From Terriglobia bacterium (GTDB lineage: Bacteria; Acidobacteriota; Terriglobia; JAIQFV01), in assembly GCA_020072965.1 (NCBI GenBank), contig JAIQFY010000003.1, positions 1-64,000 of the forward strand: a stretch of 64,000 bases of DNA, written 5' to 3'. The notes under the pieces are model-generated. The model had not been told where the DNA came from. It worked only from the letters and a program-made list of their open reading frames with translations, and did not search any database. Each line of letters starts with the position of its first letter. Within the stretch, counting starts at the first letter, position 1. This document shows, piece after piece, positions 1 through 18,471 of the stretch. The position numbers were made by a program, and so were the translations under genes.

Positions 1-2
1 GA

Positions 3-35
3 GAGCTGGATGCGGGAAATCCGCACGTCCAGTTC
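3..35 (+). ncRNA. Group II intron domain V (3' end of an intron cut by the window edge)
   Basis: The 33 bases fold as the catalytic domain V hairpin of group II introns: an 8-bp lower stem (3-10 with 28-35) containing the AGC triad at 4-6, a two-base bulge at 26-27, an upper stem (11-15 with 21-25) and a GAAA loop. All diagnostic features of domain V are visible. The rest of the intron, including any reverse transcriptase, would lie left of position 1. Domain VI and the exact 3' splice site (somewhere before about 110) were not resolved. It lies just before an attC-like site, as group IIC-attC introns do. Confidence 0.72.
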
Positions 36-115
36 GATGAGCGGGATGGGGAAACGGAGCATGGCCGAGCTAGTGAGGCACCGCCAGACGAAAGGGCCGG
101 CAACAGATAGGCTCT

Positions 116-17724: not shown

Positions 17725-18471
17725 ATGAGGGATGGGATTCTATTGGGCCGCGGTCGGCAACTGAGCGAGCTCTCGCGGCAAACATGGGAACAAGATCTGG
17801 CGAAAGTACCTGAACATATGGCAGCACGGTTGGCCTTCATGTCGGAGGCACATCATCGCGTCCGCTCCTGGGTCGTCCAGCAACTGCCGTACCAGAACGC
17901 CCCCATTCCAGTGGAGCTCATTGCGCGGGCCCTGAGCCTATCCGAGGCAGAAGTAATGACTCTCCTGGACGATTTGGAGCGGCACCTGTTTTTCCTGGTA
18001 CGCGACGCCCAGGGTTCGGTGAGCTGGGCCTTTCCCGTGACGTTAACTGCAACCCCGCACGCGCTGAGATTCAGTACAGGTGAACAGTGCTTTGCCGCTT
18101 GAGCGGAGGACGCGATAGCGGCGTCCTTCGTCGAGGGACGATTACGAAACGAGCCGGTGACGGTTTCCATTCAAACTGCTTGTGGGCACTGCGGCCAACC
18201 CCTGTGCATGACCGTGAATAGCGAGATGCAGTCAACGGTCGATGACCCGAGCGCAAGGCCGATGGTCTTTGAGCCGCAGGTGGATTGGGCGACCTTCCGG
18301 GAGCCGAACATCGTTCACGCGTATTGAAGGCGCTCGATCTTCTTCTGGTCAGAAGAACACGCGCGGGTCTATCGGGAGCAAATGCAGCAGGTGGATGGAG
18401 TTTACCTGACATTGGAGCAGAGTGCCTATTCAACTCCTATCGTTCAGGGAGCATTGTTTGGGTTCCGGTGA
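17725..18471 (+). CDS. MerB-like organomercurial lyase homologue with two in-frame UGA codons (candidate double selenoprotein)
   Basis: One uninterrupted 248-codon frame if UGA at 18100-18102 (residue 126) and 18325-18327 (residue 201) are read through. Residues 1-100 form a winged-helix-like N-terminus (LIARALSLSEAEVMTLLDDL). The first UGA lies in CFAA-U-AED, matching YAWC-ALD of MerB (Cys96 and Asp99); the second lies in NIVHAY-U-RRSIFFWS, matching the SFC-NQVHFF region of Cys159. The third MerB cysteine (Cys117) is matched by Cys153 in IQTACGHC. Thus the codons replace just the two catalytic cysteines, while frame and conservation hold on both sides. Each UGA is followed at once by a hairpin. 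Read as stops, it would be a pseudogene broken exactly at both active-site codons. MerB cleaves carbon-mercury bonds; this homologue's substrate is unknown. No sel genes are in the window. Confidence 0.78.
18103..18131 (+). promoter_or_regulatory. Hairpin directly after first UGA (SECIS-like)
   Basis: Starting at the base after UGA, 18103-18113 pairs with 18121-18131 over 11 positions (including GGACGC with GCGTCC and three G-U pairs) with the 7-base loop GATAGCG. The first loop base is G as in bacterial SECIS elements, but the loop is closer to UGA (11 bases) than in the usual bacterial model. Confidence 0.5.
18328..18366 (+). promoter_or_regulatory. SECIS-like hairpin after second UGA
   Basis: TTCTTCT (18340-18346) pairs perfectly with AGAAGAA (18351-18357) around a GGTC loop; a lower stem GCGC pairs with GCGC (18330-18333 with 18362-18365). 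The loop begins with GGU about 20 bases after UGA, as in the Escherichia coli fdhF SECIS loop and within the usual spacing of bacterial SECIS elements. Confidence 0.65.

Follow-up and report, generated by a model that had tools for sequence, protein, structure and literature searches.

A MerB-like gene with in-frame UGA codons at both metal-binding cysteine positions is predicted to encode a protein with two selenocysteines

The organomercurial lyase MerB binds mercury with two cysteines, Cys96 and Cys159, and uses Asp99 as catalytic residue. In bacteria, SECIS elements of the E. coli fdhF type have a GGUC apical loop. According to the published rules for bacterial elements (bSECIS), the stem comprises 4-16 bp and the loop 3-9 nt, with a G in the first two loop positions and a distance of 16-37 nt from the UGA. 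A selenium-containing relative of MerB has been described: SaoL (NF040728), the MerB-like organometallic lyase of the SAO system, has one selenocysteine (Sec) in a C-U motif (2026 review). Surveys which screen for Cys96 and Cys159 (e.g. PMC8261052) would not count a form with Sec in both places.

The window analyzed here is a stretch of 64,000 nt from a Terriglobia bacterium (contig JAIQFY010000003.1). A sequence-only reading had proposed a MerB homologue with two Sec in it, and the features of this gene are listed in Table 1. The frame had been described as open over 248 codons save for TGA at codons 126 and 201, which was confirmed by translation; no further internal TGA and no other frame defect were found. 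The terminal TGA is an ordinary stop, because relatives finish there with TGA, TAA or TAG. Pfam MerB (PF03243) matched residues 106-232 with E = 7.3e-13 and 49 bits (cut-off 27). The two UGAs had been placed on the catalytic cysteines, and both alignments used agree: in a phmmer comparison with the MerB2 structure 5c17, U126 aligns with the Cys in FAWCA and U201 with that in TCKQIHYF, and the family alignment shows Cys in both columns for Cys-type MerBs. The proposed C-x-x-D spacing and the third MerB cysteine also held, since Asp129 keeps the spacing of Asp99 and Cys153 occupies the Cys117 column. Among 52 aligned relatives, the U126 column, the U201 column and Asp129 were all invariant.

Table 1. 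Coordinates of the predicted gene and its features in the window.
Feature	Position	Strand	Remark
MerB-like selenoprotein gene (predicted)	17725..18471	+	248 residues if Sec is inserted at both internal UGAs; stop at the terminal TGA
UGA1, codon 126	18100..18102	+	MerB Cys96 column
Asp129 codon	18109..18111	+	MerB Asp99 spacing; invariant (n=52 relatives)
Candidate SECIS1	18122..18140	+	stem CGUCCUU/AGGGACG, loop CGUCG, 26 nt after UGA1
C-x-H-C motif (Cys153, Cys156)	18181..18192	+	Cys153 on MerB Cys117 column; Cys156 extra
UGA2, codon 201	18325..18327	+	MerB Cys159 column
Candidate SECIS2	18340..18357	+	stem UUCUUCU/AGAAGAA, loop GGUC, 19 nt after UGA2

The fold was predicted with AlphaFold2 from the alignment of the 52 relatives with Sec entered as Cys (pLDDT 93.9, pTM 0.91). 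In a structure search with this model, all 11 PDB matches at E ≤ 0.001 were MerB, and the crystal structures of MerB matched with a TM score of 0.62-0.70 by query. The protein thus shares with MerB (PF03243; 3f0o, 3fn8, 5c17) the fold, the two metal-binding columns, the Asp spacing and the Cys117 column. It differs from MerB by predicted Sec in place of both catalytic cysteines, an extra cysteine in the C-x-H-C motif, about 11 residues inserted between the two sites, only 15-18% identity in structural alignment and the absence of MerA or a mer operon. The canonical MerB equivalogs of NCBIfam scored 38.2 (cut-off 193) and 32.6 bits (cut-off 200), below their cut-offs. SaoL belongs to the same superfamily and is a selenoprotein as well, but it has one Sec instead of two, and the window protein lacks the C-U motif and scores 38.7 bits against the SaoL model (cut-off 140). 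Single-Sec MerBs of Acidobacteriota and Chloroflexota (e.g. L029, L021) share the superfamily and a second-column Sec with a GGUC hairpin; unlike the window protein, they have Cys in the first column and form a separate clade in the tree. We therefore class the window protein as a double-Sec branch of the MerB superfamily, of which a single-Sec relative, SaoL, was already described.

The genome containing the window (G000, 100% complete) was searched for Sec machinery, for which the sequence-only reading had suggested looking. SelB (E = 6.6e-114), SelA (E = 5.9e-167) and a tRNA-Sec with anticodon tca (69.8 bits) are all encoded. In the 20 other genomes with a UGA-containing MerB from the first searches, SelA and SelB were both present, except for the fragmentary assembly G393 with SelB only. 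The sole tested genome without both SelA and SelB (G186) has a Cys/Cys MerB. Across the phylum, SelA was detected in 252 of the 396 genomes sampled and in 18 of the 19 among them with a UGA-containing MerB (Fisher p = 0.0018); because SelA is common, this co-occurrence is supportive but modest. Of 40 named genomes carrying the double-Sec gene, 37 had SelA. A Sec gene island was observed in G480 (L058:3743-10245, -), where the double-Sec merB is followed on the same strand by genes for an RHH-like protein, SelA, a fusion of SelD with a carboxymuconolactone-decarboxylase domain (CMD), and SelB. It is the second set of Sec genes in that genome.

Taken with the columns, the hairpins and the selection described below, the machinery strongly supports the double-Sec MerB homologue predicted from the sequence. 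The best explanation, which we hold with good confidence, is a MerB-superfamily selenoprotein with both UGAs read as Sec and acting on an organometal. For its parts, selenium at both positions, 126 and 201, appears nearly certain, cleavage of a carbon-metal bond by the double-Sec protein is somewhat favored, and mercury as the substrate is possible though rather doubtful. SelB and tRNA-Sec would read both internal UGAs as Sec, each directed by the hairpin located just 3’ of it. In the folded protein, the selenolates of Sec126 and Sec201 together with Asp129 would replace Cys96, Cys159 and Asp99 of MerB. The selenolates would hold the metal atom of an organometallic substrate, in the simplest case an alkyl- or aryl-mercury compound, while Asp129 would move a proton to the carbon and the carbon-metal bond would be broken. 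Release of the metal may be aided by the C-x-H-C pair or a cellular thiol.

The gene surroundings were also inspected. In the window, the neighbors encode a NUDIX protein and a DUF3303 protein, and similar genes are located near the relative with 85% identity. A consistent gene neighborhood across the loci was not found. The best shared close neighbors were a MerR-family regulator (7 loci) and an RHH-like protein (6 loci). The regulator, which could be a sensor for the substrate, is encoded on the same strand and no more than 500 bp upstream in the mainly deltaproteobacterial loci L092, L097, L109, L110, L113, L118 and L124. The RHH-like protein is small (about 99 aa), and its gene is near the double-Sec gene in most of L054, L058, L060, L066, L067 and L114. 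At the beginning of the window (1-74, +), Rfam gave a match to a group II catalytic intron (44.7 bits). No mer operon was found around the double-Sec gene, and only one of the 43 carrier genomes had a true MerA above the cut-off. This near-complete lack of true MerA makes mercury less certain as the substrate. A double-Sec protein which is not an organomercury lyase is thus a serious competitor: it may bind or cleave another organometal or organometalloid, or be a metal scavenger, a sensor or a redox site. Besides the near-absence of MerA and the lack of adjoining mer genes, this is favored by the assignment of the described SAO selenoproteins to organometal chemistry in general and, from general chemistry, by the consideration that two selenolates might bind Hg(II) too tightly for turnover. 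Against it speaks that the protein retains the MerB fold as well as the catalytic Asp and both columns that bind the metal. Judged by sequence and predicted structure, the protein probably works like MerB, yet outside any classical mer system.

Evidence beyond that of the sequence-only reading came from two conserved SECIS-like hairpins. After UGA1, a 5-bp stem at +22 to +36 with the loop CGUGC or CGUCG was paired in 82/82 double-UGA sequences, and after UGA2 the same number had a paired 7-bp stem at +13 to +30 with the loop GGUC. As a control, the geometry of each hairpin was slid elsewhere, and pairing reached at most 0.63 for hairpin 1 and 0.71 for hairpin 2. At +22/+36 of hairpin 1, five sequences have exchanged C-G for U-A. 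Synonymous codon choice hardly varies within either hairpin (normalized entropy 0 to 0.41) but is free at the remaining positions (0.49 to 1.0); among the first seven sequences, codon-identical columns numbered 5/5 in hairpin 2 versus 4/48 among the others. Candidate SECIS2 is the only such site in the window and resembles the fdhF type of E. coli in that its apical loop is GGUC and lies about 20 nt 3’ of the UGA. Hairpin 1 is unlike this type, as its CGUGC/CGUCG loop starts 27 nt after the UGA, and so is the presence of two elements per mRNA. Both candidates agree with the published bSECIS rules (CGUCG at a spacing of 26 and GGUC at a spacing of 19). Folded alone, the window RNA favors an overlapping 11-bp hairpin after UGA1 (-19.4 kcal/mol), whereas the comparative data favor the element at +22 to +36. 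The case for the hairpins is settled by codon freezing and pair conservation; the folding energy of the 42 nt downstream of each UGA compared to synonymous shuffles is not decisive alone.

These hairpins bear on a second, very improbable alternative, in which only UGA2 is recoded efficiently and UGA1 mostly terminates translation, giving a product of 125 residues with the full-length protein as a selenium-dependent minor product. It would fit the observation that four relatives of the clade have reverted to Cys at UGA1 and none at UGA2, and also the loop CGUCG of hairpin 1, which is not E. coli-like GGUC. However, UGA1 is always substituted by Cys, the residues downstream are conserved, and hairpin 1 not only conforms to the bSECIS rules but disappears when UGA1 is lost: in three of the four relatives with Cys for UGA1, it is reduced to 2-3 of 5 pairs, and hairpin 2 is complete there. 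In one relative with a decayed hairpin 1 and a Cys codon for UGA1 (L128), hairpin 2 shows a compensatory change from U-A to C-G. The GGUC hairpin was absent in all six forms checked with Cys or Trp in the second column.

Relatives were collected to read the residues in the two columns, as the sequence-only reading had proposed. Within the class, relatives with 85% and 49% identity each have the same two TGAs. A PF03243 search of the phylum yielded further double-TGA forms, many single-TGA forms and Cys forms; in the alignment, the double forms are U/U, the single forms Cys then U and the classical forms C/C. A scan of named genomes with the alignment A1 gave 80 loci, of which 79 were scorable after omission of the frameshifted L078. 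U/U was found in 75/79 and C/U in 4/79, so that these clade relatives have only Cys or UGA in both columns and any other residue in 0/79. As patterns, the scan used FFWSEEH and a peptide of the ACAEDA type; as the latter requires a Cys codon, the scan is not biased towards UGA. It successfully replaced an earlier scan of genome contigs with a single protein, which returned 0 loci because its peptide patterns were too specific. Weak matches with internal TAG stops in G104 and G608 were discarded as apparent chance. Viral contigs were searched as well, and no relative of the double-Sec gene was found in them. According to their titles, the records of the scanned loci belong to Chloroflexota, Acidobacteriota, deltaproteobacterial groups, Nitrospirota, Rokuibacteriota, Binatota, KSB1, Bacteroidota and others. 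The predicted double Sec exchange is kept across dozens of bacteria from about ten phyla, although individual taxon assignments may be wrong since the carriers are mostly MAGs. By this comparison, UGA in both columns of the window gene is evidently not a chance event, because double UGA recurs in the same columns in 75 of the scorable loci.

For the window gene and its closest relative, dN/dS was 0.157 in the segment preceding UGA1, 0.153 in the middle segment and 0.057 in that following UGA2. Thus, selection stays purifying after each UGA, and the argument of the sequence-only reading against random decay is borne out. A decaying pseudogene or TGAs from assembly errors, suggested by two internal stops under the standard code, can be set aside as extremely improbable, given TGAs shared by independent genomes at 39-86% identity, dN/dS < 0.16 and an otherwise intact frame. 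Equally improbable is a reading of UGA as another amino acid by a variant code or a suppressor tRNA, for which one relative (L041) with Trp (TGG) in the second column would speak; it was rejected, since the columns and hairpins are conserved, the Sec machinery is present, relatives otherwise have Cys, TGA is still used as stop in neighboring genes and in the window gene itself, and L041 also lacks the first Cys and the hairpin.

Besides the double-Sec clade of the window gene, the superfamily contains single-Sec forms, Cys/Cys forms and a second double-Sec clade in Chloroflexota. A single-Sec paralogue exists in the genome of the window itself (L029, G000:C104:13413-13778), with Cys in the first column and UGA in the Cys159 column. 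The above-mentioned L041 (G449) is of the single-Sec type with Ser in the first Cys column and no GGUC hairpin; both catalytic residues have apparently been lost. L148 is more MerB-like, with Cys in the first column and UGA in the second (GCTUPLINFFCS), lacks the GGUC hairpin of the other clades and is possibly a further Sec gain. In a quickly computed, rootless tree of 85 rows with weak support for deep branches, in which gain and loss of Sec are indistinguishable, the clade of the window gene is a single, fully supported group on a long branch. The fewest changes on this tree are 7 in column 1 and 5 in column 2, and within the clade reversion to Cys was seen in column 1 only. The other double-Sec group, which came from the search of the Dehalococcoidia class (L156, L158, L160-L162, L164), clusters with single-Sec forms. 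Its motifs are YGQUGFES and UxxMNLFRSEEH, with Glu at the Asp129 (Asp99) position. The candidate SECIS1 of this group sits elsewhere and has another loop, which contains GGUC and lies at about +18; this suggests that the first-column Sec was gained separately. More broadly, we tentatively propose a widespread family of diselenolate organometal (probably organomercury) lyases in Acidobacteriota, Chloroflexota and deltaproteobacterial lineages, independent of MerA and overlooked in merB surveys since its UGA codons are taken as stops in gene calling, in which the double Sec of the active site may have had two or more origins, in clades that are separate and differ in SECIS1.

A described MerB with two Sec, of which the sequence-only reading knew none, was not found in the sources compared. 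NCBIfam 20.0 contains no specific model for the window protein or the single-Sec group. The double selenoprotein MbdU (NF045648) was not among the NCBIfam matches at E ≤ 1, and the window protein is without C-U. True SaoL gave no match above its cut-off in 245 genomes of the Dehalococcoidia class. A two-Sec MerB is absent from the 119 families or subfamilies listed in the 2026 selenoproteome review, through which the SAO and selenoprotein-neighborhood families of Haft were compared, and a two-Sec organomercurial lyase was not found in the open-access full-text literature. Within these databases and this literature, the window protein is the first MerB relative with predicted selenium at both metal-binding positions. 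With standard gene calling, its catalytic half is concealed by the UGA codons, and programs which treat UGA as a stop would shorten the protein. If methylmercury is cleaved, the family would add a route of demethylation in lineages from which true MerA is nearly absent. Since U/U, C/U and C/C forms coexist in it, the superfamily offers a natural test of the contribution of Sec relative to Cys, and the double-Sec gene one of how a single mRNA carries two working SECIS elements.
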